Below are positions 17,793 through 39,362 of a stretch of DNA of 59,764 bases, piece after piece (within the stretch, counting starts at the first letter, position 1; each line of letters begins with the position of its first letter). The stretch is from Bacteroidota bacterium. Lineage in GTDB: Bacteria; Bacteroidota; Ignavibacteria; OLB7. The notes under the pieces were generated by a model. It was not told the origin of the DNA. It saw only the letters and a program-made list of their open reading frames with translations, and searched no databases. Location of the stretch: the NCBI GenBank assembly GCA_018266795.1, contig JAFDZV010000037.1, forward strand, positions 1 through 59,764. The letters are read 5' to 3'. The translations under genes and the position numbers were made by a program.

Positions 17793-17855
17793 CAACGCCG
17801 AGCGCGTAGCGTTCCGGCGATTGAACCGCACGAGTTATCAAGGCGACGGTGCAAC

Positions 17856-20090: not shown

Positions 20091-20258
20091 TCACCCGTTC
20101 CGTTCCATCGTTCGTTGCATGCGCATCGCCGGCCGTGTGTACGCTGCCGGCGGTCTGCGTACCGGCGGCCTGCGCGTGTTGCCGCCATTGTTCGTCCGCA
20201 CGGCCCCGCGCCGTGGACTGCCGTGGTTGTTGTTGTGACTCTTGACAGGATTGGCGCC

Positions 20259-20933
20259 ATGCGAATACTCATCGTTGAAGACGATCCGAACATTGCCGGC
20301 GAGATCAGCCGTGCGCTGGTTGAAGGGCATTATCTGGTGGACATCGCGCAGGATGGCGAGGAAGGCGAGGATCTTGCGCTGAGCAACGATTACGATCTGA
20401 TCCTTCTGGACATCATGCTTCCCAAACGTGACGGACGTGCGGTGTGCAAGGCGATCCGCGATGAAGGTATTGCCACTCCCATCCTGATGATGACCGCCAT
20501 GGGGCAGGATGAGGATGTGATTCACGGTCTGGACGTTGGCGCCGATGACTACCTGGTGAAGCCGTTCCGCATGGGAGTGCTGCTGGCCAGGGTGCGTTCG
20601 CTTACGCGACGGCGTTCGGAGCAGAAGACCACACAGCTCACGGCGGCGGATCTGGTGCTGGATACCGTGAAGCGGACGGTGTCGCGCAGCGGTGTCGTGA
20701 TCGATCTGACGGCGAAGGAGTTTGCGCTGCTGGAATATTTCCTGATGAACAAGGGGCGTGTGCTGACGCGTGAGATGATTTCCGAACATGTCTGGGACAT
20801 GAACTTCGATCCGCGTTCCAACGTGGTGGACTCGCTCGTGCGCTTCCTCAGGCAGCGCATCGACAAGGACTTCTCGCCCGTGCTGATTCACACGGTGCGC
20901 GGCGTGGGGTATCGCCTAATGGACGAGGAATAA
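20259..20933 (+). CDS. OmpR/PhoB-family response regulator
   Basis: 224 residues from ATG 20259. The receiver domain has the acidic pocket EDD (residues 7-9), phospho-acceptor Asp51 in LILLDIMLP, the TA switch (LMMTAMG) and DDYLVKPF with the conserved Lys. The C-terminal winged helix has LTAKEFALLEYFLMNKGRVLTRE and HTVRGVGYRL, typical of OmpR-type regulators. It is phosphorylated by the kinase encoded 5 bp downstream and binds promoter DNA. The target is unknown, but the kinase subtype and the His-rich gene downstream suggest a metal response. Confidence 0.95.
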   Translation: MRILIVEDDPNIAGEISRALVEGHYLVDIAQDGEEGEDLALSNDYDLILLDIMLPKRDGRAVCKAIRDEGIATPILMMTAMGQDEDVIHGLDVGADDYLVKPFRMGVLLARVRSLTRRRSEQKTTQLTAADLVLDTVKRTVSRSGVVIDLTAKEFALLEYFLMNKGRVLTREMISEHVWDMNFDPRSNVVDSLVRFLRQRIDKDFSPVLIHTVRGVGYRLMDEE

Positions 20934-20938
20934 TCGGC

Positions 20939-23101: not shown

Positions 23102-23764
23102 CTAATGGCGATCGCGCAGGTCCATGCGGATGTGAACGCTATCCTCCCGGAACACCGCGGGCGCACCATGCCTCGGTGCGCGCACCGCTTCGTGCTCTGC
23201 CCGATCCGGCTCCAACGGATGCCCGACGGCAATGCCGGGCTGCTTCCGGTCAAGGTGCCTTTCTCCGGGCGTCGCCATACGGTCGGTGTGGGCCCTGTGT
23301 GTGCCATCGGATGCCGTACTCTCTGAAGCATGGTAGCCCGCGGCCTGCGCGATGCCCAGGCCAAGAGCGCCGCCCTGGTTCAGGAGGAGCAACGCTGCTG
23401 CGGGGGCCGGCTGGTGCTGCGTCTCCGGCAGGGGGCCGATGGAGGCGATCGTCACCACCACCGCGAGGACCGTGGCTGCCAGGCCGAAGAGAATGACCTT
23501 CATGTCATGAACTCCCGCACGCGATGCTGCGGCGTGCGTGGCTGTATTGCCGAGCCGGGCAAGCAGCGACGGAGCCGGCTGGGGAGAGAGCACCGGGATG
23601 GATGTACGGTCGGACTGCACCGCACTGTTGATTATCCGTTCGGCTGCCAGCATTCGCGCTGCGGCAGGATCGCTTGCGGCCTGCTCCAGGAAGCGGGCCT
23701 CTTCGGCCGGACTCATGCGTCCGTCCACAAGGCGCTCTATCGATCGGTCGTATTGGCTTCGCAT
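23102..23764 (-). CDS. Cysteine-free membrane anti-sigma-like protein (module A)
   Basis: 220 residues from ATG 23764; a TTG at 23821 would add 19 residues. A helical N-terminal domain (YDRSIERLVDGRMSPAEEARFL, ending AERIINSAVQSDRTSIP) matches that of the 28228 product (AEQLISMAVRNDRASLP) but lacks the His/Cys zinc motif of classical anti-sigmas. One membrane helix (MKVILFGLAATVLAVVVTIA) precedes a His/Ala-rich periplasmic tail with HQPAP and several isolated His residues. Position downstream of an ECF sigma gene on the same strand, with a 92-bp gap, supports an anti-sigma role. That role is inferred from context and shared domain only. Confidence 0.78.
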   Translation of the reverse strand: MRSQYDRSIERLVDGRMSPAEEARFLEQAASDPAAARMLAAERIINSAVQSDRTSIPVLSPQPAPSLLARLGNTATHAAASRAGVHDMKVILFGLAATVLAVVVTIASIGPLPETQHQPAPAAALLLLNQGGALGLGIAQAAGYHASESTASDGTHRAHTDRMATPGERHLDRKQPGIAVGHPLEPDRAEHEAVRAPRHGAPAVFREDSVHIRMDLRDRH

Positions 23765-23856
23765 GGATCTCACCAGTTCCTGTAGAACTCTCGAACACGT
23801 TGTTGAAGGTTTGCCGTTCAAGGGCTTCCGGCGGCAGGGTGCCGCGGAGCCCTTTG

Positions 23857-24471
23857 CTACGGGTCCTCCGTTCGCGACCGGCTTGGTCGCTTCCCGGCCA
23901 AAGGCTGGCTGGGGGGCGGGGCGTCGATTGCTGCGGCCACCAGCTTTCGGAGTTGAGCTCGTGCCCGCGAGGCCCGAGCCCAGATTGCATCCGGTGTCTT
24001 GCCGGTCATGGCGGCAATCTCATCGAAGCGATAGCCGCAGTAGAGATTGAGAATCAGCACCTCGCGATACTCGAACTGCAATCGGTCCAGCATGGCCAGC
24101 GCAAGCTCTTCGAGGTCGGAGGGGGCCGAACGCGTGCCCATCATCGTCTCAATGTTCTCCACATCCTCCAGCGGCACCATCGGGCGTTGTTTCCGGATGT
24201 GGTCGATGCAGAGGTTGCGTGCAATCCGAAGGAACAGGCCGCCGGGGTTGCGAACCTGCTGCGGCGACTGGCGCAGCCCGATCACCCGTTCCCACATTCC
24301 CTGCGTCATGTCCTGGGCAGCCTGGGCATCGCCGACGACTTTCACGCAATACACGAACAGCCGCTGATTGTACTTGCGGAAGAGCGATACAAACGCTTCG
24401 TTTTCTCCGTCGAGGAACCGACTGAAGAGAGTGGCGTCGTCAGAGGTTATTCCATCCGCTTCTGATGTCAC
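23857..24471 (-). CDS. ECF sigma factor (module A)
   Basis: 204 residues from GTG 24471; no in-frame ATG precedes the sigma domain. Region 2 includes NEAFVSLFRKYNQRLFVYCVKVVGD, AQDMTQGMWERVI and GLFLRIARNLCIDHIRKQR. Region 4 includes QFEYREVLILNLYCGYRFDEIAAMTGKTPDAIWARASRARAQL. The YREVLIL-LY-GYR-DEIA-M core is shared closely with the sigma at 28992, so the two are paralogues. It is divergent, with a 246-bp gap, from the lipoprotein gene at 24718, a likely target. Confidence 0.92.
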   Translation of the reverse strand: MTSEADGITSDDATLFSRFLDGENEAFVSLFRKYNQRLFVYCVKVVGDAQAAQDMTQGMWERVIGLRQSPQQVRNPGGLFLRIARNLCIDHIRKQRPMVPLEDVENIETMMGTRSAPSDLEELALAMLDRLQFEYREVLILNLYCGYRFDEIAAMTGKTPDAIWARASRARAQLRKLVAAAIDAPPPSQPLAGKRPSRSRTEDP

Positions 24472-24717
24472 GGGTGCCGGTACTTACGATATGCCGCTGA
24501 TGCCTTCCGCATCACGAACGCTGCGCGATTGTTCCAGGTGTCGTTACTCGGAAAGACGGAAACTCAATGCCGTACCTGACGCCGTCCGTTGTCGCGAACT
24601 ATTTTATTCGGCGTGTCAGGGAAGAAAACGAGAGTACGTCTTTCAGAAAACATCGGCAAGTGCGCGTGCCTGCACATGGATCGGAACAATGAGAACAAAC
24701 TTCGAGGAACATATATC

Positions 24718-26007
24718 ATGAAAACGGCTCTTCATGTGCTGGCCATAGTGGCGGTGCTTGCGGTTGCGGGATGCCACGACTCGTTTCCGCCGACGGATCC
24801 CAGGCACACCAACGACACGGCAACTCCTGCGCTGACCGCGACGCGCTGGTGCCTGGAATCCATTACCAGTCCGGACAGTCTTTCGGTTCCCTCGGTCGAT
24901 CCCGCACTGGGCATCTATCTGGAGCTTGATGGTACCGGGGAGATGCGCGCATTTGGTGGCTGCAACTTATTCAGCGGCTATTATCAGACGGCGGCGGGCG
25001 GCGTGATTCATGTCTCCAGTCTGGTGGGGACGAAGATTCATTGCCAGGATGGGGCCACGCTCGAAGCGCTGTACTCAACATCGCTGCTCGGTGCGCTCAC
25101 GTACCGGTTGGATGGCACTCATCTGACCATGATCTGCAGTAGTGGTACGGACAATGCGTCGCAGCGTATGCTCCGCTTCGTTGCGTGCAAGCCGAGCCCG
25201 CCTCCTCCGCCATCTTCATCCGGCAGCATCGCCGGCAGGCGCTGGTGCCTGCAGCAGATTCGGAATTCCTACAGTGGGAATTCGGATGTGTCGGTGAATC
25301 AGTGGGTTGGGATGTACGTCGAGTTCGAGAACTCCGGCAAGGTTGACGGCTATACCGACAGCTGCCGCATCTCGGGGGGATACACCGTGAACGGTGCCGG
25401 CCTTACGACGTGGAGCATCGGTACGGCGCCGATCACACCGAACGCCGCCGCGGTCAGCGACTGGCAGCAGCTTTCGGGATGGCATGTCGGAGCGCGTTTC
25501 CTTGCTGCGCTGCGTGCATCGGTAAAGTATCGAATCGATGACGCAACCCAGATCCTGTACATATTTGCCGGCGATTCCAATGCGAGTACAACGATTGCGG
25601 ATACGCTGGTGCTGACGGAGTGCACACCGGCCAACGTGGACACAGTGTTTCCGGGAATGCCCTTCCAGACGAAGATTGGTCGCCTGGAGAAAGTTGCCGG
25701 TGAGCCGCTCTCCCTCAGGATTGCCGGCGGGCCCTTGGAGGATAGTCGCTGCCCGTCCGGTACGCAATGCGTTCAGGCCGGCAGGGCTGCCGTGCCGTTG
25801 TATCTCATGCTGGGCGTTGTACCGAGAAACGCGACGCTTGCAACGACCGGCGAGGTGCAGACGCGCGACTCGCTCCTCTACCCCAACATGCTGGGCAATC
25901 CGAACTATCTTATCCAGCTTCTCTCGGTCTATCCGTATCCGCTGCCGGGTGTTACGGTACAGCCGGCGGACTATGTGGTGAACATGACCGTGGAGAGGAT
26001 ACCCTGA
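24718..26007 (+). CDS. Lipoprotein with two META/HslJ-like domains and a C-terminal DSRCP domain
   Basis: 429 residues from ATG 24718, after a GAGG box. The lipobox LAVAGC places lipidated Cys19. Residues about 39-155 and 185-312 are two META-like domains. The first keeps the YLELDGTGEMRAFGGCN pattern. The second is degenerate (GMYVEFENSGKVDGYTDSC). The last part, about 315-429, contains EDSRCPSGTQCVQAGRA, a motif common in small Bacteroidota envelope domains. Paired cysteines suggest disulphides in the periplasm. It is probably an outer-membrane or periplasmic lipoprotein, divergent from the module A sigma and followed by the OmpA-type gene after 203 bp. Confidence 0.88.
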   Translation: MKTALHVLAIVAVLAVAGCHDSFPPTDPRHTNDTATPALTATRWCLESITSPDSLSVPSVDPALGIYLELDGTGEMRAFGGCNLFSGYYQTAAGGVIHVSSLVGTKIHCQDGATLEALYSTSLLGALTYRLDGTHLTMICSSGTDNASQRMLRFVACKPSPPPPPSSSGSIAGRRWCLQQIRNSYSGNSDVSVNQWVGMYVEFENSGKVDGYTDSCRISGGYTVNGAGLTTWSIGTAPITPNAAAVSDWQQLSGWHVGARFLAALRASVKYRIDDATQILYIFAGDSNASTTIADTLVLTECTPANVDTVFPGMPFQTKIGRLEKVAGEPLSLRIAGGPLEDSRCPSGTQCVQAGRAAVPLYLMLGVVPRNATLATTGEVQTRDSLLYPNMLGNPNYLIQLLSVYPYPLPGVTVQPADYVVNMTVERIP

Positions 26008-26210
26008 TCCCGAGGATGTTAGGGATGCCATGAGTCGCCGGCATTCGCATGACTCGCAGGGGCCGTACACGGGGCGGTCCGGCAAGTTGCGCGATGCGGC
26101 ACATGGGTGAACCAATCGGCAGGCTGGTGTTTCGGCATCGGCCTGCCGATAATGTATTTCGAAGCGGGAGAATCATTATTCACGGGGAACAGTTCCACAC
26201 TCTGCCTGGA

Positions 26211-28145
26211 ATGTGTCTGCGCCAGCCAGTGAGGTTCGTGGCAATTGCGGCTGCGCTGTTCTGCATCCTGTCGTGTTGCGATATGCATGCGCAACTGCTC
26301 GTGGAGCCGGCAGTCGGCAGTGGCTACGAGTTCGGGGTGCCGCTTGCCGCGTCGCGCATTCCAGGGCAGGTTAATCGTGTCGGTGCGCCCGGTACCGGCG
26401 CCTCCTTCAACAACACGTGGTATGCATCCGGTGCGCTTCTGTTTCGCGATCTGATTGCGCGCGGTGTCTCGCCGTTTGCGCGTCTCTCGCTTGCCCTCTC
26501 CATCGGCCGCTTCACCTCCGATTCATACAACTCGCCATTCTACCTGTTGCCCGGCGGGCCGGACTCGGCCCGGCGTCAGTTTCAACTCTACAGCTCGCTT
26601 GGAATCGTTCAACTCGATGTTCCGATTCTCTTCGCGATCGGCGGCGGATGGTCTGTCGGTGCCGGCCCCTGGGCCAGCTATCGCCTCACGTCGTCGTTGA
26701 TCGCAACGGAACGGATCGCCGCGCCGGACTCCGCACTCTTCTTCGACGGCACGCAGCAGCGCGTGATCGATGCCGGCGAAACCCTGAGCACCAGCCGGTT
26801 TCGTTTCGGAGGCATGCTCTCCGCCGGCCGGCGCATCCCGCTTGGAATGCGGTTGGCATTGCTCCCGGAACTGTACGGCCGTCTGGATGCAGGCTCGTTG
26901 CGTGACGGACTTGGATCGCGTGCTCTCAGCGGCGGCGTTTCGTTTGCGCTCCTGTTCGATCTCTCGGAGGGAGCCGAACGGCGGCGCGATACTGCAACGG
27001 TGCCGCCTCCGTCTGCACCATCCACGCGAGTCCTTCGCGCAACGATCGGCCTCGCGGCCCAGGACGGAGGGCATCGCGCATTGATCCGACCGGAGCGCGT
27101 GCTGTACCGGTCCGTGATGCCTTTGATCCCGACCGTGTACTTCGACGAAGGGACGGCCGACCTGCCCGAGCGCTACCGCCGCATGAGCCGCGAGCGGGCC
27201 GTTGGGTTCAGCGAGGCGATGCTGGCTCGTAGTGGGTTCAACGATCAGTACGATCACCTGCTGGATATCGTTGGTTCGCGCATGCGCGACAACGCCGGGC
27301 TTCGACTCGTGCTTCGAGGCTCTGCGGAACGTACGGAGCCGGCCGGGCTTGCACGCCGGCGGGCCGCAGCAGTTCGCGGCTACCTCGAGGAGGTGTGGAG
27401 CATTGCCGCCTCGCGCATCCTGATGGAGGCCGAACCTGGCGGTGCTCCTGCACGCCAGGGTGTCCAGACGCGCAGCGTTGCGTTTGCATTGCAATCCACG
27501 GAGCCGGCCGCTCCGGTTCGCAGCGAATGGATTGTTGAACGATGGCATGCCGAGCCGGTGAAACTGGCCCATACGGTGCAGGCCGATGCCGGGCTCGCCT
27601 CGTGGGCGTTGACTGTTCGCCAGGGGCCGGCACTGATTGCGCGATCCACCGATCGCGATGGCGATCTGCCCGATCATGTGGAGGGTGTGATCACTGCCGC
27701 CGCAGGCACGGAGCCGCTGGTTGCGGAATTGATGGTGGAGGATAGCACCGGGGAGCGGGCGGTTTCACGCGACACGCTGAGCATTGTGCGCGCGGCGCTC
27801 GATGCCGATGCGCCGCAGGAGGAGATCTCAACCTATCTCTTTACCGGCTCGCGCGAGGAGGTCGGCCGGATGTCGGAGGAACTGGCGCTCGACACCCGCG
27901 ACAGTGCCATCGTCCGCATATCGACCACGGGCGATCGGGGCATCGACTCCGCCTCGTTCGTGGTTATCGGGCAGATATCGCTATCGCTGGAACGGCACGG
28001 CCGGCACGTGCGAACGCTGCAGACGATGCGCAGCACGGAGGGGGAGCGCATCCCGGGCACCGAGGCCCCGATGAACAACCTTCCGCCGGTGCCCGCGGAT
28101 GATGTCGTCATTGTCACCGTGGAGCAGAGCGGAGCCGCCCGCTGA
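26211..28145 (+). CDS. Outer-membrane beta-barrel plus OmpA-like protein (module A)
   Basis: 644 residues from ATG 26211 with a signal peptide ending near MHAQ (residue 28). Residues 30-260 alternate like a barrel (YEFGVPL, LALLPELYGRL). A Pro/Ser linker (PPPSAPS) leads to an OmpA-like domain at about 300-430: IPTVYFDEGTADLPERY, VLRGSAE, then ARRRAAAVRGYL with the conserved peptidoglycan-binding Arg. The remaining 200 residues (including ELMVEDSTGERAVSRDTL) match the tail of the 31134 product and have no family I recognise. The protein would anchor the outer membrane to the wall. It is a paralogue of 31134, in the same position of a duplicated module. Confidence 0.87.
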   Translation: MCLRQPVRFVAIAAALFCILSCCDMHAQLLVEPAVGSGYEFGVPLAASRIPGQVNRVGAPGTGASFNNTWYASGALLFRDLIARGVSPFARLSLALSIGRFTSDSYNSPFYLLPGGPDSARRQFQLYSSLGIVQLDVPILFAIGGGWSVGAGPWASYRLTSSLIATERIAAPDSALFFDGTQQRVIDAGETLSTSRFRFGGMLSAGRRIPLGMRLALLPELYGRLDAGSLRDGLGSRALSGGVSFALLFDLSEGAERRRDTATVPPPSAPSTRVLRATIGLAAQDGGHRALIRPERVLYRSVMPLIPTVYFDEGTADLPERYRRMSRERAVGFSEAMLARSGFNDQYDHLLDIVGSRMRDNAGLRLVLRGSAERTEPAGLARRRAAAVRGYLEEVWSIAASRILMEAEPGGAPARQGVQTRSVAFALQSTEPAAPVRSEWIVERWHAEPVKLAHTVQADAGLASWALTVRQGPALIARSTDRDGDLPDHVEGVITAAAGTEPLVAELMVEDSTGERAVSRDTLSIVRAALDADAPQEEISTYLFTGSREEVGRMSEELALDTRDSAIVRISTTGDRGIDSASFVVIGQISLSLERHGRHVRTLQTMRSTEGERIPGTEAPMNNLPPVPADDVVIVTVEQSGAAR

Positions 28146-28164
28146 AGTGGCGCCGAAAACGAAA

Positions 28165-28194
28165 CGTGGCCGCCCCCATTCGGATGCGGCCACG
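28165..28194. terminator. Bidirectional terminator hairpin between convergent genes
   Basis: CGTGGCCGC (28165-28173) pairs exactly with GCGGCCACG (28186-28194) around a 12-nt loop. It lies between the stop of the OmpA-type gene and the end of the minus-strand anti-sigma gene. The T-tracts are weak. Confidence 0.65.
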
Positions 28195-28227
28195 AACTTC
28201 CAAGTGTGTGGGATGGATCTCGTTCTG

Positions 28228-28992
28228 CTACTTGATGTGAGGCTGGCGTTTACGAATGGAGCCGTTCCCAGCCTCTTCATATGTCGGCACGGATTTTTCC
28301 GGATGCGTTGATGCACTGGCGCCCGCTGCTCTCCGGCCGTGCTCTCCTTGAACAACGGGTCCGGAGTGTACCATCTCCGATTCGCGTACGTTCTGGCGGC
28401 GTGTACTCTGCCGTACCGGTGCGGTCTCAGAAGCTTGCGCATCGTTGCCCGGCTGCTCCCGGACTGGTGCTGCCAGCGGCTGCGTGCCCGATTCAGCCGG
28501 GGCACTGGGGGCCGGAGCCAGGGAGGGGGCGGTGGCAGGGGCTGATGGTGCCGATGACGTGGCCGGAGCACCGGGTGCGGTCGAGGCGCCCGGGTTCTGA
28601 GCCGGTGTGGTTTCATTCCGCTCCGTCAGGCGCGGCGCAAGGAGAAGGGCGAATGCAACGATCAGGGCGCCGGCACCGGCCCAGGGAAGGAAGCGTGCCA
28701 ATCCTCTTCCACCGATGTCGGAGGAAGGCGAGCCAATCCTGCCTGCACCTTCGGGTTCGAGTTCGGATGATACCGCACCGAGCATTGTAAGGAAGCGCGT
28801 TCGCGACGCCGCCGATGGTTCCGGGAGCGAGGCGCGATCGTTCCGAACGGCCATGGAAATCAGTTGCTCGGCGCCAAGCGCGCGCTGTAACTGAGGGTCT
28901 CCCTTCGAGCGTTCAAGCAACGCCTGCCGTTCTTCCTGCGACATGTCGCCGTTGCGAAAGCGCTCCATCAAGTTCTCACGATCATCCATCAT
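28228..28992 (-). CDS. Cysteine-free membrane anti-sigma-like protein (module B)
   Basis: 254 residues. The N-terminal helical domain (ENLMERFRNGDMSQEERQALLE, AEQLISMAVRNDRASLP) is clearly related to the module A protein at 23102 and has no Cys. The membrane helix is near residues 98-118 (FLPWAGAGALIVAFALLLA). The periplasmic tail is an extended Ala/Pro/Ser-rich region, then a basic end (RKRQPHIK). The start overlaps the sigma stop by one base, so translation is coupled. Likely the cognate anti-sigma of the 28992 product, inferred from context and paralogy. Tail composition predicts an unfolded spacer reaching toward the cell wall. Confidence 0.8.
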   Translation of the reverse strand: MMDDRENLMERFRNGDMSQEERQALLERSKGDPQLQRALGAEQLISMAVRNDRASLPEPSAASRTRFLTMLGAVSSELEPEGAGRIGSPSSDIGGRGLARFLPWAGAGALIVAFALLLAPRLTERNETTPAQNPGASTAPGAPATSSAPSAPATAPSLAPAPSAPAESGTQPLAAPVREQPGNDAQASETAPVRQSTRRQNVRESEMVHSGPVVQGEHGRRAAGASASTHPEKSVPTYEEAGNGSIRKRQPHIK

Positions 28993-29666
28993 TACCCGTT
29001 TGCCTCCATGTCACTCATGTCGTTGCGTGAAAGCAACGTTGCGGGATCAACTCCCGATTCCTGGATCAAGGCCATAACTCGCTCGCGTAACTGTAGGCGT
29101 GCACGTGATGCACGCTTTCGAATGGCGTCCGGTGACTTTTCGAGCATGGTTGCGATCTCGTCCAATCGGTAGCCACTATACAAACTCAGTATCAGTACCT
29201 CGCGATAATCATCGGGGAGGGAGTGGAGCGCGCGTACCGCGATATCCTCGAGTTCCGACAGCTCGTGTTGCGAGGTCTTCGGCAGGGCGCCTTCGTGTAC
29301 GTCATCGAGCGAAGATGTACGCCGACGAGCTTTCAACTGATTCAGACAAAGGTTGCGCGCGATGCGCAGAAGGAATCCGGTCGGGTTCAGCACATGTTGC
29401 GGCCGCGCTCGCAGGCGGGCAATCCGTTCCCAGATCTCCTGTGTCAGGTCCTCCGCCTGCTCACCATTGCCGAGCAGCTTCAGGCAATACATGTACAGGC
29501 GCCGGTTGTGGCGATCGTACAATGTCACGAGCGCATTGGTATTACCGCTGAAGAGATAGCTCTCCAGCAGTGCGACATCATCGCTCGGGTCCATGGCGGA
29601 CACGGTATTGATTGCGTTGCGCTCCGTGTTCACCGAAGATGAAAGCGTCAACTGAAAGTGACTCAT
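28992..29666 (-). CDS. ECF sigma factor (module B)
   Basis: 224 residues from ATG 29666, with GGAG 11 nt upstream. The start may instead be ATG 29594, which removes 24 residues. Region 2 (TLYDRHNRRLYMYCLKLLGN, AEDLTQEIWERIARL, GFLLRIARNLCLNQLKARRR) and region 4 (DDYREVLILSLYSGYRLDEIATMLEKSPDAIRKRASRARLQL) are complete and close to the module A sigma. It is divergent from the lipoprotein at 29969 across a 302-bp region with a -7-like box, which is where its own target promoter might be expected. Confidence 0.92.
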   Translation of the reverse strand: MSHFQLTLSSSVNTERNAINTVSAMDPSDDVALLESYLFSGNTNALVTLYDRHNRRLYMYCLKLLGNGEQAEDLTQEIWERIARLRARPQHVLNPTGFLLRIARNLCLNQLKARRRTSSLDDVHEGALPKTSQHELSELEDIAVRALHSLPDDYREVLILSLYSGYRLDEIATMLEKSPDAIRKRASRARLQLRERVMALIQESGVDPATLLSRNDMSDMEANG

Positions 29667-29931
29667 TCAGAAAAGCTCCAGGAAGCTACTCACCCCCGAT
29701 GACAATTGCCAGCAGGAGCGTGTGACAGTGGCATAAACCGTGGTCAACCAAATAGCTGTACGATACGTCCACTTCGAGGGGGCGCGGCAACATCGAGCGT
29801 GGAGGCGTGTTGTTCACACGAGAGGAACGAATCGTTCGGAGGCATACAACGGCCGGCCAACCGGCCCTCTCCGGCGGAACGTGCGCCGGTTGCCCATTGC
29901 TTCAGGCCTTCCTCTGTGGGCTCTTTTCCCG

Positions 29932-29939
29932 TATTCTTG
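29932..29939 (+). promoter_or_regulatory. Candidate -7 element for the propeller lipoprotein (TATTCTTG)
   Basis: TATTCTTG (one mismatch to TAnnTTTG) lies 29 bp before the ATG at 29969, in the 302-bp divergent region between the module B sigma and lipoprotein genes. I see no gene in that region. Confidence 0.35.
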
Positions 29940-29968
29940 CAGATATCCCCTTCGGAGTCGAGCAGCAC

Positions 29969-31132
29969 ATGCAGAAACCGAAACGGCAACTCTTTATCGC
30001 ATTGGCGTTTGCATCGGCCGCAGTTGGTGCCATTGGCGGCTGCAGCGATCCTGTTGCTACTTCGCCCCCTGATTCCTTCTGGAGCCGGGGGGGCCCAATT
30101 CTGTATACTCGCCAGGCCAGCGTCGTGGATGCCGGGCAGGTGCGGGTGATCGGACCGGACGGTGCGGGGGATACGTCGCGATGGGCCGGGACTATCCCAT
30201 GCCCTCCGCGGCTTGGGCATGCGATCATCGTCAATTACCTGGCCAAGACGCTCTCCGTTGTCCCGATCCCCGATGCCGGTACGCCCCGCCAGTTCCGCGT
30301 GGAGGCCGGCGGAACGATCACCGCCGTGGCCTATGCACCGGATGCGGCCAGGGTGGCATATGTGGTGCGCGCAAACGGAACCCCGCCGCTCTCGTCGTTA
30401 TATATCTGCGACACCAACGGCACCGCGGCTCCGATGGCCGCCGACGTTGCCAACTCCTCCTATCCGGTGTTCTCGCCGGATGGAAACAGGGTGGCCTTCT
30501 ATGCCGGAGCGGACCAGAGCGAGATTCATGTGCTGGACCTGAAGAGCCAGCGGATCGATACGATCGCTGCCGGTGCGTTCCCATGGACGATCGAAAACGT
30601 GGACTGGTCGCCGGGCGGCGACTCGATTCTCTTCGCGGGAAGGAGCAACGATGGTGGAACACGGCATATATGCATCGTGAGCGCCTCAGGCGGACCGCAG
30701 CGCTCGCTTACCGCCGGCATCGGCGGCGACAACCGATGGCCGTTGTGGTCGCCCGATGGAGGCCGGATTGCATTCATTCACAACAACGAGCTCTGGGTGA
30801 TGAAGGCTGATGGCACCGATGGCGAGCAGCTCACCCATATCTCTTCCTCGCCAACGCAGTACCGCATCGCGATCAATCCGCAGTGGTCGCCGGATGCCTC
30901 GATGATCGTGTTCTCCGCGATCGCAGGCAATCCGCTTCAGGGCGTGCTACAGGTTGTGGATGTGTCGACGCATCGTGTAAATGTTCTGGCGCGAGATGTT
31001 CTACCAGGCTTCTGGTGCCCCCCGAACCTTCATGCATCCTGCCGTGCACCCGAGCGTCCTCGTCTCGTTGCACGGGCCGCCGTGCATGTCACCAAAAACC
31101 AGTGGAGACCGATGCAACGTGCAGCGACGTGA
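29969..31132 (+). CDS. Lipoprotein with TolB/PD40-type beta-propeller (module B)
   Basis: 387 residues from ATG 29969. The lipobox is AIGGC (Cys near residue 25). The body has repeated PD40 motifs: YPVFSPDGNRVAFYAG, ENVDWSPGGDSILFAG, RWPLWSPDGGRIAFIH and INPQWSPDASMIVFSA, each a blade of a TolB-like propeller. It is probably a periplasmic or outer-membrane lipoprotein mediating protein contacts. The last 40 or so residues after LPGFWCP are Arg/Pro/Cys-rich and unlike the propeller, so the natural end may have been altered by a small frameshift or an insertion. Its stop is one base before the next ATG, so the two genes are surely cotranscribed. Confidence 0.88.
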   Translation: MQKPKRQLFIALAFASAAVGAIGGCSDPVATSPPDSFWSRGGPILYTRQASVVDAGQVRVIGPDGAGDTSRWAGTIPCPPRLGHAIIVNYLAKTLSVVPIPDAGTPRQFRVEAGGTITAVAYAPDAARVAYVVRANGTPPLSSLYICDTNGTAAPMAADVANSSYPVFSPDGNRVAFYAGADQSEIHVLDLKSQRIDTIAAGAFPWTIENVDWSPGGDSILFAGRSNDGGTRHICIVSASGGPQRSLTAGIGGDNRWPLWSPDGGRIAFIHNNELWVMKADGTDGEQLTHISSSPTQYRIAINPQWSPDASMIVFSAIAGNPLQGVLQVVDVSTHRVNVLARDVLPGFWCPPNLHASCRAPERPRLVARAAVHVTKNQWRPMQRAAT

Positions 31133-31133
31133 C

Positions 31134-33134
31134 ATGAAATTCTTCCGTCATGTACGATTGCTTCTGCTTCTGCTCGCCGTGCACGCAACCGTTGCACATG
31201 CGCAGCAGCCGGCGGAAGCAGGCATTGTCGTTTCCTATCGCTTCGGAGTTCCGCTCGAATTGCTCCGCTCCGTGGGGCATGTCAACGGGCTTGCCGCTGG
31301 CGGCATTGGGAGTTCCTATACGAACATTGTGGGTGGAGGACTACATGCTGCGTTCGGGTCGCTTCTCTCTGAACGGTTCGGTCTCGATATGTCCGGGGAA
31401 GTGCTCGTTGCCGCAGGCCGGTTCCGTTCGGCCGTGTATGCCGGCGATCGCGAGCTGGATCCGCTTACAGGCCAGATCGTTCCTGCGCAGTATCAGTCTC
31501 TGATCTCATCCACACGAACCGCACTCGACGCGCAGCTGCGCATCTGTTATTCACTGGCCACCAATTCCCGGTTGTCTGCCGGCATATGGGGCACGCCACA
31601 ACTGTCGGCGACATACAACTACGCGATTCGAAAGCTCGCGCCGCTTGTGCCGAACAGTACCGTTCCGGATTCCGTGCCTCCTGCCTTCGTGACAACGGAA
31701 CCATCCGCTGCACTACGCTATGGTTTGGGAGCTGCCGGCTCGATGGAACTACCTGTCGGCACCGGCCTGCTGCGGCCGGAACTCGGAGCGCGCCTCGATC
31801 TGCCGGCTTTGGCGGACGGCCTGGGGATACGTTCGCTCAGCGTTCGGGCGTCGCTGGCTTGGGTGTTCCTTCGCCGTCAATCGGTGGACAGCGTCTCACC
31901 GCCTCCTCAACCTCCGGTGATCGCCAGAGGGGCGGATGATATCTCCGTGCGGAGATCCGCTGTTCCATTCAACGCAACCGATCCTGCCGTAGGACCTGAG
32001 TCGCGCGACCTCACGGCGAAGCCTCGTCTCGTTGCGTCGATCGATCTGTTCAGTCCGGGCGAGGGAGGCATACGCCTGCAGACCGCTCAGGTGCATCCGG
32101 AAATCATTCAGCATCAGATCTGGATGGCGTTTCCGACGCTGCTCTATTGCGATGCCGGCATCACCGGAATCCCGGAGCGATACCGGCAGTTCACGCCGGA
32201 GCATGCCGCCTCCTTCGCGCCTGCCGAACTCGTTCATCGATCGCCTGCGGATATCTACTGTCACGCTCTGGACCTTCTCGGGTATCGGATGCGGCTGGAT
32301 CAGTCAACCACGGTTACGCTTGTGGGAAATCGTTCGGTCGATGAGCGGCCCGGGATCGCACAGGCCAGAGCTGACGCGGCGCGCGCCTATCTTCATGATG
32401 TCTGGGGCATTGCTTCGGAGCGAATTGCAACCAAGCGGGGGCTGGGGTATGGGATGGGGGATGACCATGTTGAACGGTGCGTGGTGATAGAAGGTCCGGT
32501 GGAATCCCTGCTTGCGCCGGTGGTTGTCGAGTGGCGCTCGCGAGCGTACCGGCTGCCTCCGTTGGATATCGATCCGGAGATCGAGGCGCAGGCCGGTGTA
32601 CGGAACTGGACGATTACCGTACGTCAGGATGGTCATGTGGTGACCAGCTATTCAAGCAGCGACAATGAGGATGGGAATACGGATATCCATCTTGCCATCC
32701 CCGAAGATTACGCAGGGGGGGTGTTGCCCCCGCTCGTTGCTGAAATGGCCGTGGAGGATTCGAGCGGTCAGAAGTGTGCAGTGCATGATACGCTGCCACT
32801 GGTGATAGGTGCGGGCAACGACTCCGCTGTTTCCACGGACCGCGCGAACCGACTCTACGTTGTTCCCGACGGCAGCGAACGCCGGGCGAAGCTGCGGGAA
32901 ATTGCCGCCGGTGTGCACGACGGCGAGAGCATCACGGTTCGAGGCATCGAAGCTGCCGAGATCGCATCGACGTTGCGTACCATCGTGGATGCACGCCGCC
33001 GTAATGTCGTCTGGACTGTGGATGTCTCGGACGGCGGCATCGGCGGGCTTCCAACGGCAGAGGAGCATCACGTCAATGAGTGCGGGCTCGTGGAGCTTGC
33101 AGCGGTCCATGAAGGCGACAGTGATGGACGGTGA
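31134..33134 (+). CDS. Outer-membrane beta-barrel plus OmpA-like protein (module B)
   Basis: 666 residues from ATG 31134, starting one base after the propeller lipoprotein. The signal peptide ends near AHAQ (residue 24). The barrel part carries YRFGVPL and DGLGIRSLSVRASLA, matching YEFGVPL and DGLGSRALSGGVSFA of the 26211 paralogue. The OmpA-like domain at about 320-440 has FPTLLYCDAGITGIPERY and a RADAARAYLHDVWGI helix with the conserved Arg. The usual F/Y-D/E start is less canonical than in the paralogue (YCDAG for YFDEG). The C-terminal part shares EMAVEDSSGQKCAVHDTLPL with ELMVEDSTGERAVSRDTL. Role: envelope tethering, probably under the divergent ECF sigma. Confidence 0.87.
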   Translation: MKFFRHVRLLLLLLAVHATVAHAQQPAEAGIVVSYRFGVPLELLRSVGHVNGLAAGGIGSSYTNIVGGGLHAAFGSLLSERFGLDMSGEVLVAAGRFRSAVYAGDRELDPLTGQIVPAQYQSLISSTRTALDAQLRICYSLATNSRLSAGIWGTPQLSATYNYAIRKLAPLVPNSTVPDSVPPAFVTTEPSAALRYGLGAAGSMELPVGTGLLRPELGARLDLPALADGLGIRSLSVRASLAWVFLRRQSVDSVSPPPQPPVIARGADDISVRRSAVPFNATDPAVGPESRDLTAKPRLVASIDLFSPGEGGIRLQTAQVHPEIIQHQIWMAFPTLLYCDAGITGIPERYRQFTPEHAASFAPAELVHRSPADIYCHALDLLGYRMRLDQSTTVTLVGNRSVDERPGIAQARADAARAYLHDVWGIASERIATKRGLGYGMGDDHVERCVVIEGPVESLLAPVVVEWRSRAYRLPPLDIDPEIEAQAGVRNWTITVRQDGHVVTSYSSSDNEDGNTDIHLAIPEDYAGGVLPPLVAEMAVEDSSGQKCAVHDTLPLVIGAGNDSAVSTDRANRLYVVPDGSERRAKLREIAAGVHDGESITVRGIEAAEIASTLRTIVDARRRNVVWTVDVSDGGIGGLPTAEEHHVNECGLVELAAVHEGDSDGR

Positions 33135-33500
33135 CCGATCGTCCTGAATACCACCCAATTGCCGTTACTGCATCGATCAAAATCTGCATGCCACGAGGTG
33201 CAGGCCGATACCGATACAGCCACTCTCGAGGTCCTAATCCGGCGGCCGAGACTGCGGTTTTCCGTAGAAATCGGTCATCTACAGCAGCTGGTCGCTGCTG
33301 GCTGGACGTTGCGGGCGGCGATGTCGAAGTCTGTGTGATCACAGTTACGTGCGGGAGAGTAACTCGCTTCTTGGGGCATCACACCCCGTTACATATATTT
33401 AACGCTCTCTCTCCGTGGTAGTTCGTGGGCTATCGCGCTGGGCGCAGTGACCTCTGGACCGGCCGCTGGTTTTGTTGCACCGTCAGCTTGGAGCTCGTAT
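33135..33500. other. Intergenic region with promoter of the giant adhesin
   Basis: A GTG-started frame overlapping the previous stop (33131-33421) was considered and rejected. The right part holds the promoter candidate at 33371-33401. No terminator-like hairpin was found. Confidence 0.4.
33371..33401 (+). promoter_or_regulatory. Candidate -33/-7 promoter for the giant adhesin
   Basis: TTG (33371-33373) is followed after 20 bp by TATATTTA (33394-33401), close to TTTG-N19-TAnnTTTG. A short dyad GGGG-N7-CCCC lies between the two boxes. The ATG is 99 bp further on. Confidence 0.45.
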
Positions 33501-36500
33501 ATGCATCTGAACCGTACACCCCTGCCCATTCTGCTCTTGCTATTTCTGTTTGTGACGCCGATCGTTGTCAAGGCACAACGATCGGAGACGCGACATCAGC
33601 ATCGCGGCGTTGCAGCTGCCGGGAGTCATCATGACGATGATGGGCCACGGCATGACGGATTGCGCCGTATCAACGGAAGCACGCTCAAGTTCACCGAGAA
33701 TCGCGGTCAGCTGATCGATATCAACGGCAAGCCCGTTCCCGATGTGCTCTACTCAGCGAGTTCCGGGGATGCCATGGTCTTTTTCGAGAAGGGACGCCTG
33801 ATCTATGAGTTCAGTCGCCTCGATGGAGACATGAACTACTACAGCGATCGGTGCCAGAACGGCTACATGCGCGGGAACAATGGTGCGAAAGGCTATTACA
33901 TAGACGAGCCGATACTCAATCTGCATCGCATGGACATGGAACTGGTCGGGGCGAATCCCGACGTTCGTGTGGAGCCTGCGGAGCAGTTGGATTCGTACGA
34001 GAACTACTATCTGGCGCAGTGCCGCGACGGAATCACCGGCGTCCATTCCTGGCGGCGTCTCGTCTATCATGACGTGTACCCGCACATCGACATGACAGTA
34101 GGCGCAGGAGAGAACGGCGCGAAGATCGACTTCGTAGTACACCCGGGCGGCCGGATCTCCGATATCCAGATGCGATATGTCGGTGCGGACAGCGTACGGC
34201 TCGGCAAGGATGCGTCGTTGCGGGTGCAGACGCCGCTTGGCTATCTGCAGGCTGCCAGTCCCTACTGTTTTCAGACGCAGGGAGTCTTCGGAGCGATCAC
34301 CAGCCGTTACGGGCTCGACAACAACGTGGTGACCTTCGCGGTCTCCGGCTACGATCCCTCTCAGGATCTCGTCATCGATCCGTTCCAGCTCTGGGCGACC
34401 TTCTACGGCAACAGCAACTCCGAGCAGTTGAGCGGTGGTGATCCGACGGAGGTGGACCGCAAGGGCAATGCCCTGATCGCCGGTTCCACGCGCACCACGT
34501 TCCCGATCGTGACGCAGCCGGGTGGGTATACACAGGGATTCTCCGGCGGCGACGAGGCATTCGTTGCACGGTTCAGCGCAGACGGCCGGCTCCGCTGGTC
34601 CACTATCTATGGCGGACCACAGGACGAGCTTGCCCACGGCGTTGCAACGGATACGGATCTGAACGTCTTCATCACAGGCCATACCTTCAGTACCGGTACC
34701 GGGTTCCCGACATCCGCCGGCGCATTCCAGTCCTCATTCGCGGGCGTGCGTGATGCGTTTGCCGTGAAGTTCGATTCCAATGGCGTCCGGTTGTGGGGTA
34801 CCCTGTATGGCGGAAGCCAGTTCGACGACGGCTACGGATTTGCTGTTGACAGCTCGAAAAACGTTGCGCTCCTGGTGACAACGCAGAGCAGCGGCATGCA
34901 AACTCCGCCGCTGGCTGCATACCACGGCAACTACGACGTCATCGTGGTGAAGTTCAATGCCGGCGGCAATCGCGTATGGGCGGAATACTTCGGCGGTTCG
35001 GGCGAGGACTACGGTTACGCTGCGGCAACGGACGTGAACGACAACATCCTCATATCCGGCTATACCTACAGTACGTCGCCGAGCTGGACGATGGTGAGCG
35101 CTGCGCAGGCGCAGAACGGCGGCAATGGGGATGCCTTTGTCGTGAAGATGACATCTGCCGGGGCGGTGATATGGTCCACCTATTACGGCGGTCCGGGGAC
35201 AGAGAACAACGACGCCGTTGCAATCGCCTACAACGGATTGGCAACCAATATCAACGGCGATATTTTTCTCGGCGGCACCACGTACAAGAATGCGCTTGCG
35301 AACCCCGGGTTCCCGGTTACCGGCGGCGCGTTTCAGACTACGTACGGAGGCGGTACGTGTGATGCATACGTCACGAAGTTCGATTCCAACGGAGTTGTAG
35401 TCTGGTCCACATATGTAGGAGGCAGCGGCGCCGATTATGGAACGGGCGTTGCCTCCAATGCATCCGGAGGTGTGCTGCTGACAGGGTTCACCTCCACGGC
35501 CAATGCTACATTCCCGACACTCGCGGCGGCGGGTGCCAAGCCGGGAGCCTTCCAACAGAATGCGAATGCCGGCGGCAACGATGCGTTCATCGTAAAGTTG
35601 AACGGGGCTGGCATTCAGAAGTGGGGGACGTTCTTCGGCGGCAACGGGGATGACCGAGGGGAAGGTATCTCGTTCGATCCCTATGGCTCCATCGTGATTG
35701 GCGGCCAGACGACGACCGCCAATCTCAACGGCCAGGCGCCGTTTGCGATGTCGATCACAGCGAATCCCATCATCCAGGCCAACTATGGCGGCGTGCAGGA
35801 TGCCTTCGTCAGCGTTCTATGCGATCCCGATCCTGCGCCCATTGATTCCAGTGGTCCGCATAAGCTGTGTGACGGCGATACGGTGACGCTATCGGTACGT
35901 CCCGGTTATTCGAGCGTCAAGTGGTACAAGAAGGATCCGCCGCCCAGCGGCGCTGTCAACGAGCTGGTTGCTGCGCGTAATATCGATTCGATCATTATCT
36001 CGGAAACGGGACGCTTCTGGGCAATCGTTCAGAACGCAGGCGGCTGCGAGTCCAGCACGGACTCTATCGATATCACGAAGCTGCAACGGGTGAATCCATT
36101 GATTGCTCCTGCGTCACCGGCCTCGGTCTGCACAGGTGATACTCTGATACTCTCGGTCTCTGCGGTCCAGACGCTTGCCAAGTATGCATGGCTTCGAGGC
36201 CCAGGCCCGACCGACACTGTCTCTACTCTCTCCACAGCGAAGGTGACGGCCCCGGGCAATTTCCCAACCGGCGTGTACAAAGTGTACGTGGTTACCGTTG
36301 ACGGCTGTCGCGACTCCACGACGGTTCAGGTGAACGAGTACCCGAAGCCGACGCCGATTGTGGTTGCGTCTGATACGTCGATCTGCGAGGACGATATGGC
36401 CAACCTCGCTTCGTCAGGAGGCACCGGAGGGGCGATTACGTGGTTCAAGGTTGGCACGGTGCCGGCCGTTGGCGGCGGGCCTCAGTACTCCACGAAGATT

Positions 36501-39362
36501 GCAGGTACGTACTATGCGATCTCCACGTCGCCGAACGGTTGTACGCGGACTTCCAATCGCATCACCGTGAAGGTGAACAAGAAACCGGTCCCCAAGATCA
36601 CGGCGCTGACCCCCATCTCCTTCTGCGAAGGCGACAGCGTGGTGCTCGACGTGTTCCCGAAGGCGGGCGATGCCGTGCATCCGGATTTCTCGTATGCGAA
36701 GTACGATTGGTCCAACGGCGCCTCGACGCGGCGCATCGTGCTGCGAGAGAGCGCGACGCTCACGGTTACCGTCACGGATACGAACGGATGTATGGGGATC
36801 GATCAGATTACGGTGACGAAGAATCTGAAGCCTCACCCGAAGATCACGTATGCGCCGGATACCGTCCTTTGCGAGGGTGATACCGTCACACTGAGTGCTG
36901 ACGCCAACTACGACAGCTACGGCTGGAACAACGGGAGCACGGATCGTTCCATCAAGGTTTGGAGAACGGGAGCCTATGTTCTCCTGGCAACCAATTCCGG
37001 ATGCACCGGCATGTCGGATACTGTTCATGTGATCGTGAAGCCGCGGCCACTCGCAACGATCAGCGGTGCAACGGCGGTCTGCACCAACACGCCTGCGCAG
37101 TACAGCGTGCCGGCCGGTACCGGCATGACGTATGATTGGCAGGTTGTCGGTCCAAGCGGATCGGTGAGTTCGGGAGCAGGCACCAATACCATCCAGGTGA
37201 ACTGGGGCCCGGCGGGCGCAAACAAGGTTATCGTGATGGTGACCGATCCGAGCAGCGGCTGCAAGTCGTACGACACCGTCAACGTGACGGTTGGTTCGGT
37301 GCTGGTGCCGAATATCACACCGAGCAGATCGCCACAGCTCTGTGCCGGCGACAGCGTAACGTTGGATGCCGGGCCGGGCTACTCCAAGTACAAGTGGTCC
37401 ACGGGCGACTCCGTGCGAACGATCACGGTGAAGACTGCCGGCCAGTACACGGTGTCCGTGGAAAATGCTACCGGATGCTCTGGCTCGTCCAATCCGTTTA
37501 CGGTGACCATCGAGGCACCGCCGAAGCCGGTGATTACGCCGAGCCCATCGCTCAGTGTCTGCCCGGGCGATACGGTGGAGCTCGATGCCGGAAGCAACTA
37601 TCGTGACTATCTCTGGAGCAACGGCGCGACCATTCAGAAGATCAAGGTTACTACATCGGGCACGTATGCGGTCGTGGTAACGGATACCAATGGATGTCGT
37701 GGCCTGTCCGACTCGGTGACCGTGGTGGTGAATCTTCCGCCGTCGCCCGTGATCAACGGTCCGAACTCCGTCTGCATCAATTCGGCGGATGATTACGTGG
37801 CAGCCGGCAATCCTGTTGATGCATACAGTTGGAACGTTATCGGTCCGGGCGCAGTGATTCAATCCGGCCAGGGTACGCCAACCATCAATGTCAAGTGGAG
37901 TTCGCCGGGTGATGACACCCTGGAGGTGACCGTAACGAGTGCATCCACAGGCTGTGTCGGTACCTTCCGTTATGTGGTGAACGTCGGCACCAGTCTCAAG
38001 CCGCAGGTAACGGCCAATGGCACGCTTCCGTTCTGCTTCGGCGACAGTATCGTGATCACGGCCCCGAATGGCTATAAGACCTACGACTGGTATCTGATGC
38101 CCGACAGCACGAACTCCATCGGCTCGCAGCAGACGTTCACCGTGAAGGCTCCGGGCCTGTACCGTGTGACGGTCAGCGATGCCGGCGGCTGCAAGGGGTC
38201 CGGCGACCTCGACGTAACGCAGAAGGCGCAGATCATCCCGGTGATCAGCCCGAGCACGAACGTTGGCATCTGCCCCGGCGACAGCGCGTTGCTTACCGCT
38301 CCGGCCGGCTATGCGAAGTACAAGTGGTCTACGGGTGAGTCTACCCGGGCCATCTATGTGAAGGCGGCGGGCAACTACAACGTTACCGTGTTCGATGCAG
38401 ATGGCTGCTCCGGTACATCGGCCGACGTGACCGTTACCGGCTATGCTGCTCCGATCAAGCCGGTGGTTGTGCAGGTTGGCGATCAGATGACCGCGGTGGT
38501 TGATTCCGTGAACGGTCCGAAGGTAACCGGCTACTCGTGGAGCCTGGATGGCAATGTGATTCCGGGTGCCGTGACTCCGCAAATACAGGCTGTGGTTGTC
38601 GGGATGTACTCCGTTACCGTGGTGACCGCGAACGGTTGCAAGGCAACATCCGATCCGGTAAAGCCAGTGCTTGCCACGGCCACAGAGATCGAGGTGCCGC
38701 AGCTTACTGCTGCTCCGGGCGAGCGTGTACTGGTTCCGCTGACATTGAAGTCATCCACGAACCTCGACAAGAACAACGTGGAGAACTTCCAGGCGAAGCT
38801 GCGCTTCCACAAGACATTGCTGATCCCGGTGCCCAGTTCCTCGACCACGAGCACGATCGTTGGTGACGATCGCGTGGTAACCGTGACCGGTGCTCGTAAG
38901 GCCGGCATGGCGACGGGGGATTTGATCACATTGGAGTTCACGGCTGCACTCGGCGACGTGATGCAGACGCCGCTGACGCTGGAGACATTCCGTTGGCTCG
39001 ATACGACGAACGGCCCCGTGCCGGTGATGGTAACGAGCGGCATCTTCACGTTGACCAATGTCTGTGAGAACGGTGGCGAGCGGCTGCTTTCGGTATCCGG
39101 CGCCACGAAGTTGAATGCGGCCCGCCCAAACCCGACCAGCGGCATGACCGATATCGAGTATGAAGTGGTGGAGCGTGGGCGTACGAGCCTGGTGCTCGTG
39201 GACATGTACGGTAACACGGTCAAGACTCTGGTGGATGGATCGATCGATGCAGGCAGCTACAAGGTGCAGTTCGATGCCCGTGAGCTTCCGAGCGGTTCGT
39301 ACTTCTGTGTTCTGCAGACGCCGACACAGCGTCTGAGCAGATTGATGCAGGTGGTGCGCTGA
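33501..39362 (+). CDS. Giant SBBP-propeller and Ig-like adhesin with T9SS-type C-terminal domain
   Basis: 1,953 residues from ATG 33501, which follows GGAG by 7 nt; the longer frame from 33447 is rejected. The signal peptide ends near VKAQ (about residue 26). Next is the ENRGQ-type N-terminal domain (LKFTENRGQLIDING) that usually precedes SBBP repeats. About seven SBBP repeats follow (W-T-Y-GG... D-N-GN), for instance WSTIYGGPQDELAHGVATD. From about residue 790 run eight to ten Ig/PKD-like units marked by CPGDSVTLDAG-type starts and YKWSTGDS. The end (LNAARPNPTSG ... LSRLMQVVR) is a T9SS type A sorting domain. It is a secreted or surface adhesin of unknown ligand. A strong terminator follows. 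Confidence 0.94.
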   Translation: MHLNRTPLPILLLLFLFVTPIVVKAQRSETRHQHRGVAAAGSHHDDDGPRHDGLRRINGSTLKFTENRGQLIDINGKPVPDVLYSASSGDAMVFFEKGRLIYEFSRLDGDMNYYSDRCQNGYMRGNNGAKGYYIDEPILNLHRMDMELVGANPDVRVEPAEQLDSYENYYLAQCRDGITGVHSWRRLVYHDVYPHIDMTVGAGENGAKIDFVVHPGGRISDIQMRYVGADSVRLGKDASLRVQTPLGYLQAASPYCFQTQGVFGAITSRYGLDNNVVTFAVSGYDPSQDLVIDPFQLWATFYGNSNSEQLSGGDPTEVDRKGNALIAGSTRTTFPIVTQPGGYTQGFSGGDEAFVARFSADGRLRWSTIYGGPQDELAHGVATDTDLNVFITGHTFSTGTGFPTSAGAFQSSFAGVRDAFAVKFDSNGVRLWGTLYGGSQFDDGYGFAVDSSKNVALLVTTQSSGMQTPPLAAYHGNYDVIVVKFNAGGNRVWAEYFGGSGEDYGYAAATDVNDNILISGYTYSTSPSWTMVSAAQAQNGGNGDAFVVKMTSAGAVIWSTYYGGPGTENNDAVAIAYNGLATNINGDIFLGGTTYKNALANPGFPVTGGAFQTTYGGGTCDAYVTKFDSNGVVVWSTYVGGSGADYGTGVASNASGGVLLTGFTSTANATFPTLAAAGAKPGAFQQNANAGGNDAFIVKLNGAGIQKWGTFFGGNGDDRGEGISFDPYGSIVIGGQTTTANLNGQAPFAMSITANPIIQANYGGVQDAFVSVLCDPDPAPIDSSGPHKLCDGDTVTLSVRPGYSSVKWYKKDPPPSGAVNELVAARNIDSIIISETGRFWAIVQNAGGCESSTDSIDITKLQRVNPLIAPASPASVCTGDTLILSVSAVQTLAKYAWLRGPGPTDTVSTLSTAKVTAPGNFPTGVYKVYVVTVDGCRDSTTVQVNEYPKPTPIVVASDTSICEDDMANLASSGGTGGAITWFKVGTVPAVGGGPQYSTKIAGTYYAISTSPNGCTRTSNRITVKVNKKPVPKITALTPISFCEGDSVVLDVFPKAGDAVHPDFSYAKYDWSNGASTRRIVLRESATLTVTVTDTNGCMGIDQITVTKNLKPHPKITYAPDTVLCEGDTVTLSADANYDSYGWNNGSTDRSIKVWRTGAYVLLATNSGCTGMSDTVHVIVKPRPLATISGATAVCTNTPAQYSVPAGTGMTYDWQVVGPSGSVSSGAGTNTIQVNWGPAGANKVIVMVTDPSSGCKSYDTVNVTVGSVLVPNITPSRSPQLCAGDSVTLDAGPGYSKYKWSTGDSVRTITVKTAGQYTVSVENATGCSGSSNPFTVTIEAPPKPVITPSPSLSVCPGDTVELDAGSNYRDYLWSNGATIQKIKVTTSGTYAVVVTDTNGCRGLSDSVTVVVNLPPSPVINGPNSVCINSADDYVAAGNPVDAYSWNVIGPGAVIQSGQGTPTINVKWSSPGDDTLEVTVTSASTGCVGTFRYVVNVGTSLKPQVTANGTLPFCFGDSIVITAPNGYKTYDWYLMPDSTNSIGSQQTFTVKAPGLYRVTVSDAGGCKGSGDLDVTQKAQIIPVISPSTNVGICPGDSALLTAPAGYAKYKWSTGESTRAIYVKAAGNYNVTVFDADGCSGTSADVTVTGYAAPIKPVVVQVGDQMTAVVDSVNGPKVTGYSWSLDGNVIPGAVTPQIQAVVVGMYSVTVVTANGCKATSDPVKPVLATATEIEVPQLTAAPGERVLVPLTLKSSTNLDKNNVENFQAKLRFHKTLLIPVPSSSTTSTIVGDDRVVTVTGARKAGMATGDLITLEFTAALGDVMQTPLTLETFRWLDTTNGPVPVMVTSGIFTLTNVCENGGERLLSVSGATKLNAARPNPTSGMTDIEYEVVERGRTSLVLVDMYGNTVKTLVDGSIDAGSYKVQFDARELPSGSYFCVLQTPTQRLSRLMQVVR

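Follow-up and report, generated by a model that had tools for sequence, protein, structure and literature searches.

Organization of the two gene blocks

The window analyzed here is the whole stretch of 59,764 nucleotides at positions 1 to 59,764 of contig JAFDZV010000037.1 (GenBank assembly GCA_018266795.1), from a Kapabacteria/Chlorobiota-type bacterium with a genome of 5.97 Mb in 71 contigs. Between positions 23102 and 33134 it carries two consecutive four-gene blocks, here called modules 1 and 2, each of which has genes for an extracytoplasmic function (ECF) sigma factor and a membrane anti-sigma-like protein on the minus strand and, divergently on the plus strand, genes for a lipoprotein and an OmpA-like outer-membrane protein. 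An initial annotation made from the sequence had reported this order, and all eight open reading frames were found where it had placed them.

Module 1 is made up of anti-sigma 1 (23102..23764, minus strand; the ATG at 23764 was taken as the start, and a TTG at 23821 is a possible alternative), ECF sigma factor 1 (23857..24471, minus strand; identified by Pfam, the sigma tree and the recognition-helix stretch TPDAIWARASRAR), lipoprotein 1 with META domains (24718..26007, plus strand; Pfam META E = 2.1e-17, lipobox by reading) and OmpA-like outer-membrane protein 1 (26211..28145, plus strand; barrel and OmpA-like domains by alignment). Module 2 contains, in the same order, anti-sigma 2 (28228..28992, minus strand; four predicted helices, a transmembrane helix and a tail), ECF sigma factor 2 (28992..29666, minus strand; Pfam and the recognition-helix stretch SPDAIRKRASRAR), lipoprotein 2 with a PD40/TolB-type propeller (29969..31132, plus strand; Pfam PD40 E = 7e-12) and OmpA-like outer-membrane protein 2 (31134..33134, plus strand; AlphaFold2 model and fold comparison).

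The two sigma factors are 48% identical over 174 amino acids (E = 5e-57), and both have the feature that marks ECF membership, Sigma-70 regions 2 and 4 without larger domains: Sigma70_r2 and Sigma70_r4_2 match sigma 1 at 2.6e-10 and 4e-10 and sigma 2 at 2.9e-15 and 1.1e-11, all over the Pfam cut-offs, and both proteins are over the cut-off for the NCBIfam sigma70-ECF superfamily. Counting these two, the genome encodes eight close sigma paralogues. In the sigma tree sigma 1 clusters with loci L088 and L174 and sigma 2 with L080, all three of which lie in other genomes; since the nearest sister of each is found outside this genome, the pair is old, and the tandem duplication that had been proposed holds as an arrangement, while the tree rules it out as a recent event.

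Recurrence in related genomes

Related loci were gathered by similarity of their sigma factors, not of their OmpA-like proteins; identical sigma domains were removed, and 80 loci above a chosen score were kept. They come mostly from metagenome-assembled genomes (MAGs) labelled Chlorobiota, Kapaibacterium, Ignavibacteria or Bacteroidota, and one set is labelled Armatimonadetes. The latter (JADZEY01 loci L081, L092, L099, L104 and L109) are very like those of the Chlorobiota MAG JAEUSP01, and the Armatimonadetes label looks wrong. The collection also includes a separate sigma clade with an anti-sigma and no OmpA-like gene in reach (L087, L090, L091, L093, L094, L096, L097, L101 and L102), whose neighborhood is conserved, with a gene for ~480-500 amino acids upstream and one for a membrane protein of ~620-640 amino acids downstream.

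A search of related genomes for the gene order had been suggested as a check on the initial annotation, and the order does recur: an OmpA-like gene accompanies the sigma and anti-sigma genes at 51 of the 80 loci, divergently at 26 and downstream on the same strand at 25, where it lies ≤240 bp from the anti-sigma gene in 24 cases. The anti-sigma gene adjoins the sigma gene at 75/80 loci, which is consistent with the predicted binding and inhibition of the neighboring sigma. Divergent and same-strand loci are split on a well-supported branch of the sigma tree, and the sigma and OmpA-like distances correlate across 20 divergent loci (Mantel r 0.78, p 0.001). No description of the composite module was found in the literature searched, which was confined to open-licence papers.

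These genes could be surface genes that merely share a location, with the sigma factor regulating something else and the order persisting by descent. Such an account would accommodate the 29/80 loci with no OmpA-like gene in reach (some owing to contig ends) and the loci at which the sigma/anti-sigma pair adjoins unrelated genes. We judge it quite improbable, as it is opposed by the linkage in both divergent and same-strand layouts, by the co-divergence of sigma and OmpA-like proteins, and by the paired promoter-like elements described next.

Paired promoter-like elements

The intergenic region of module 1 carries two back-to-back candidate elements, CGTCAGG-N16-CGTC facing sigma 1 (24555..24581, minus strand) and TGTCAGG-N16-CGTC facing lipoprotein 1 (24614..24640, plus strand). 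The test applied to the related loci required TGT[C/A/T]AGG or TGTGA[C/T]G, a 16 bp spacer and [C/T]GT[C/T], in back-to-back elements on the two strands that have ≤1 mismatch each. Pairs of this kind were found at 20 of 79 loci with a spacer of 16, any other spacer length between 10 and 22 gave 0-3, and none of 2370 dinucleotide shuffles passed; the background for a stricter form of the element is ~0.02 per strand per locus. Dyad counts in the eight intergenic regions of this genome alone gave nothing above shuffles, and the signal emerged once the spacer had been fixed and the related loci brought in. In a general back-to-back test some loci reached significance, and C29, C33 and module 2 did not.

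The type of −35 element tracks the predicted recognition helix of the adjacent sigma factor: all 16 TGT[C/A/T]AGG pairs belong to loci whose sigma has an IWxRAS-like helix and all four TGTGA[C/T]G pairs to loci with an RTRAW helix. A third word, CGTTAC[C/T]TT, was noted by reading at three loci with the helix SVKMRAMRAR.

A search for a promoter common to module 2 and L080 gave only a weak element facing sigma 2, TGTCACA-N16-TGTC (29701..29727, minus strand; two mismatches to the consensus), and no lipoprotein-side partner; by reading, the sister sigma of L080 is preceded by a similar sequence, TGTCACG-N16-GGTC. The shared ECF-type promoter for which the initial annotation suggested aligning the divergent regions has a promoter-like counterpart in module 1 and many homologues, with the one weak sigma-side candidate in module 2. 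The proposal that the divergent gene pair of each module is under the control of that module's sigma finds sequence support in module 1, and control of the module 2 lipoprotein/OmpA pair is unproven because that weak element is all that was found there.

Exact matches to TGT[AC]AGG-N16-[CT]GTC number five in the whole genome, the element facing lipoprotein 1 among them. Among three further exact sites, one lies upstream of an aminotransferase-like gene, which is without support as a target. At L223 an exact TGTCAGG-N16-CGTC stands ~250 bp upstream of a gene for a secreted repeat-like protein, a possible extra target that is also without support.

A probable autoregulated sigma factor cassette

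In our view each block is likely to be a sigma cassette of the ECF type that regulates itself and controls an outer-membrane operon of its own, whose surface cargo is exchangeable. The cassette is real and recurrent, and probably autoregulated; the gene order, its recurrence, the paired promoter-like elements and the co-divergence of sigma and OmpA-like proteins are established at the level of sequence comparison. That the encoded parts are envelope proteins in character also speaks for this reading. In the proposed mechanism the anti-sigma would hold the neighboring sigma until a signal, presumably from the envelope, frees it; the freed sigma would then read the two back-to-back intergenic elements as promoters, one of which would boost the sigma's own operon while the opposite one would drive the surface cargo (here the lipoprotein) and the OmpA-like outer-membrane barrel protein. 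The cassette would have multiplied in this lineage with sigma, anti-sigma and OmpA-like protein kept together as cargo and promoter/recognition-helix pair diverged, and this divergence should limit cross-firing between paralogues. The envelope sigma module of the initial annotation is partly supported, by its recurrent order and by the promoter-like pair of module 1.

Several observations weigh against the cassette. The element pair is seen at only 20/79 loci, module 2 not among them, and 15 of these 20 had already been inspected when the pattern was framed (the new ones are L108, L182, L184, L207 and L217); since the motif was framed on loci that were afterwards counted, the comparison with shuffles is for the most part post hoc. 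A single exact element is no commoner than its reversed control (5 vs 9 sites), so that it is the pairing that stands out, and the helix/promoter match does not amount to 20 independent events because the loci are related by descent. In addition, a Pfam scan assigned no family to the anti-sigma domain of the window proteins, and comparison of the anti-sigma 2 model with solved structures gave no convincing fold match and no sequence match to a solved anti-sigma. As the model found no structural match we assign no family on fold; this missing match is not evidence for a different fold.

The related sigma circuits of this one genome, in which the cargo, the recognition helix and the type of promoter change jointly or independently of each other, provide a testable set.

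The OmpA-like proteins

The two OmpA-like proteins are 29% identical over 560 amino acids (E = 7e-44), and the motifs that they had been said to share, YxFGVPL, [IL]PERY and VEDSxGxxxxxDTL, are all present in the alignment. Neither has an OmpA domain above the Pfam cut-off; the grounds for the OmpA label are the family alignment, in which 16 of 21 members match OmpA at E 0.01, and the predicted fold. The AlphaFold2 model of OmpA-like protein 2 (mean pLDDT 72, pTM 0.44) predicts a beta-barrel at residues 27-246, a linker, an OmpA/Pal-like domain at 329-457, a beta-sandwich and a degenerate second OmpA-like domain. Its barrel gave the top score among the compared chains, tied with others, against OprF (Z 15.7, 2.1 Å over 126 residues), and its first OmpA/Pal-like domain superimposes on Pal with Z 12.8 (1.8 Å over 97 residues). 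About two dozen regions of the genome match this protein, and strong OmpA-family matches are spread over many families of the class to which the window belongs and are rare elsewhere in the sampled phylum. The first 157 bases of contigs C33 (L055:1-157) and C61 (L057:1-157), upstream of paralogous OmpA-like genes, are identical at 155/157 positions, which probably reflects an assembly break in a repeat.

The resemblance to OprF, and the fact that sigma, anti-sigma and OmpA-like genes lie on one strand in about half of the OmpA-linked relatives, would fit homeostasis of the kind suggested by SigX-OprF of Pseudomonas aeruginosa, a close parallel in what is described in PMC3832394: the sigma would maintain the levels of OmpA-like protein and lipoprotein in response to wall or membrane stress, and the anti-sigma would not touch the barrel directly. 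This seems fairly unlikely to us. The cassettes are multiplied with varied cargo, unlike a single housekeeping porin; SigX-OprF, as far as that account goes, is a single-copy system without divergent lipoprotein cargo, and the same source lists SigX among sigmas without a neighboring anti-sigma or transducer. Moreover, a strict-pattern search of the C-terminal part for the canonical peptidoglycan motif TD..G..N..LS..RA found it missing from both window proteins and from 16/16 OmpA-like proteins of the main divergent group, and present in 15 of 39 other OmpA-like proteins.

In having a sigma, a membrane anti-sigma and an outer-membrane protein that would act together, the cassette also recalls FecI/FecR/FecA cell-surface signalling (PMC9249621); unlike that system, no FecR or TonB-dependent receptor domain was detected by Pfam among the ten window proteins scanned.

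The anti-sigma proteins and a possible link to the barrel

As the initial annotation had it, the anti-sigmas are free of cysteine (zero by reading, module 1 being read from the ATG at 23764) and alike in one block: only 49 amino acids at the N-terminus align (E = 2e-9). Each has a predicted transmembrane helix. Anti-sigma 1 would have a cytoplasmic N-terminal block, one such helix and a periplasmic tail with the end REDSVHIRMDLRDRH. The model of anti-sigma 2 has helices at residues 2-14, 19-31, 33-55 and 61-78 (within residues 2-78, mostly at high confidence), followed by the membrane helix and a low-confidence tail that is probably disordered; for comparison, the ASDI class I anti-sigma fold is a three-helix bundle plus a fourth helix that binds sigma (PMC7406223). 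The anti-sigma 2 start codon and the sigma 2 stop codon share one base, an overlap that suggests translational coupling.

In the Dma proteins of Bacteroides an anti-sigma domain, a transmembrane helix, a long disordered tether and a C-terminal barrel are joined in one chain, and their cognate sigmas belong to group ECF21 (PMC13088901). The modules appear to resemble Dma: an ECF sigma stands next to an anti-sigma whose predicted cytoplasmic domain, membrane helix and long tether of low complexity fit in their order and in the low model confidence of the tail, a barrel in the outer membrane is part of the system, and one genome holds several paralogues. They are not Dma, because the anti-sigma chain ends after its tail and the barrel is a separate gene; unlike Dma, too, the barrel protein has extra OmpA-like periplasmic domains, and many copies have a variable lipoprotein or other surface gene between sigma and barrel. 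By analogy the modules may nevertheless work like Dma.

This analogy leads to the tentative idea, an added sensing mechanism and not a replacement for the autoregulated cassette, that the low-complexity tail spans the periplasm and docks on the OmpA-like barrel, so that a dual-membrane anti-sigma would be split into two proteins that together report on the outer membrane. Proteins of apparent Dma order do adjoin ECF sigmas in this genome (L074 and L079) and in relatives (L215 and L218), which suggests, without proving it, a two-protein version of the Bacteroides system, although the barrel of these fused proteins was recognized by reading and without a family match. The L074 protein can be aligned with anti-sigma 2 from the N-terminus of the latter to its membrane helix at E = 1e-5 (a single comparison), whereas the match of anti-sigma 1 to the same protein is marginal (E = 0.043). 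Each of the 23 anti-sigmas from divergent loci that were examined combines a membrane helix with a tail rich in disorder-promoting residues (median 116 residues), and many tails finish in a DS[VI]xxxVxV-like stretch; this end is not universal, as anti-sigma 2 finishes in GNGSIRKRQPHIK, and at 110-135 residues a tail might or might not be long enough to cross the periplasm. The fuller proposition, that the modules are a two-protein, multiplied counterpart of Dma in which the tail docks on a separate OmpA-like barrel and matched promoters with exchangeable cargo make up several insulated reporting circuits per genome, is more doubtful still. The cassettes may provide a link between the Dma anti-sigmas, described only recently, and barrels that have a gene of their own, and if the split arrangement is true, two proteins, not one, can inform the cytoplasm about the state of the outer membrane.

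Lipoproteins and variable cargo

The two lipoproteins give no alignment with one another and match META and PD40, respectively, as given above, in agreement with the earlier view that they are unlike; lipoprotein 2 also matches NCBIfam propeller_TolB at 1.4e-21, well under that model's cut-off. The genes between sigma and OmpA-like protein at the related loci include those for PD40 propellers, META, META plus PD40, sulfatase-modifying-factor-like, laminin-G-like, BNR and other proteins; at some loci the divergent gene instead encodes a large protein that has either DUF7948 or a type IX secretion tail, and at some there is no cargo gene. Because L174, a close relative of module 1, joins META and PD40 within one lipoprotein, the two cargos of the window are not wholly separate choices. 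Of the swapped recognition component that had been proposed, the variation of the cargo among loci holds; a recognizing role of the cargo is conjectural.

The predicted mature N-termini are C-H-D-S-F-P-P (lipoprotein 1) and C-S-D-P-V-A-T (lipoprotein 2). An Asp at +3 after the cysteine occurs in 20/20 module lipoproteins of a hand-picked list and in 12 of 32 other lipoprotein-like starts, and most of the listed proteins have a single acidic residue after the cysteine. In Bacteroidetes the lipoprotein export signal is a polar or charged residue followed by acidic residues right after the lipidated cysteine (PMC5080379), and the Asp at +3 in this hand-made list resembles such surface-export signals.

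Neighboring genes in the window

Downstream of module 2 and on the same strand, a gene for a DUF7948/SBBP/PKD surface protein (33447..39362, plus strand; Pfam) with a type IX secretion tail that scores slightly below the Pfam cut-off is a possible extra member of the module, and its pairing with an OmpA-like gene recurs at L057, L058 and L064. At L055 (and, by reading, L095) a large DUF7948 protein is encoded by the sigma's own divergent gene. Just upstream of module 1, positions 18519-22324 (plus strand) hold genes for a phosphate-binding-like lipoprotein (by reading), a response regulator and a histidine kinase; similar genes adjoin L080 and L092, so this neighborhood looks partly conserved. 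Two more ECF sigma genes lie in the 60-kb window at 16166-17871 and 55662-56285 (both minus strand), and the gene that follows the former encodes an N-terminal HxxxCxxC motif, which sets its product apart from the anti-sigmas of the modules, as these lack cysteine.

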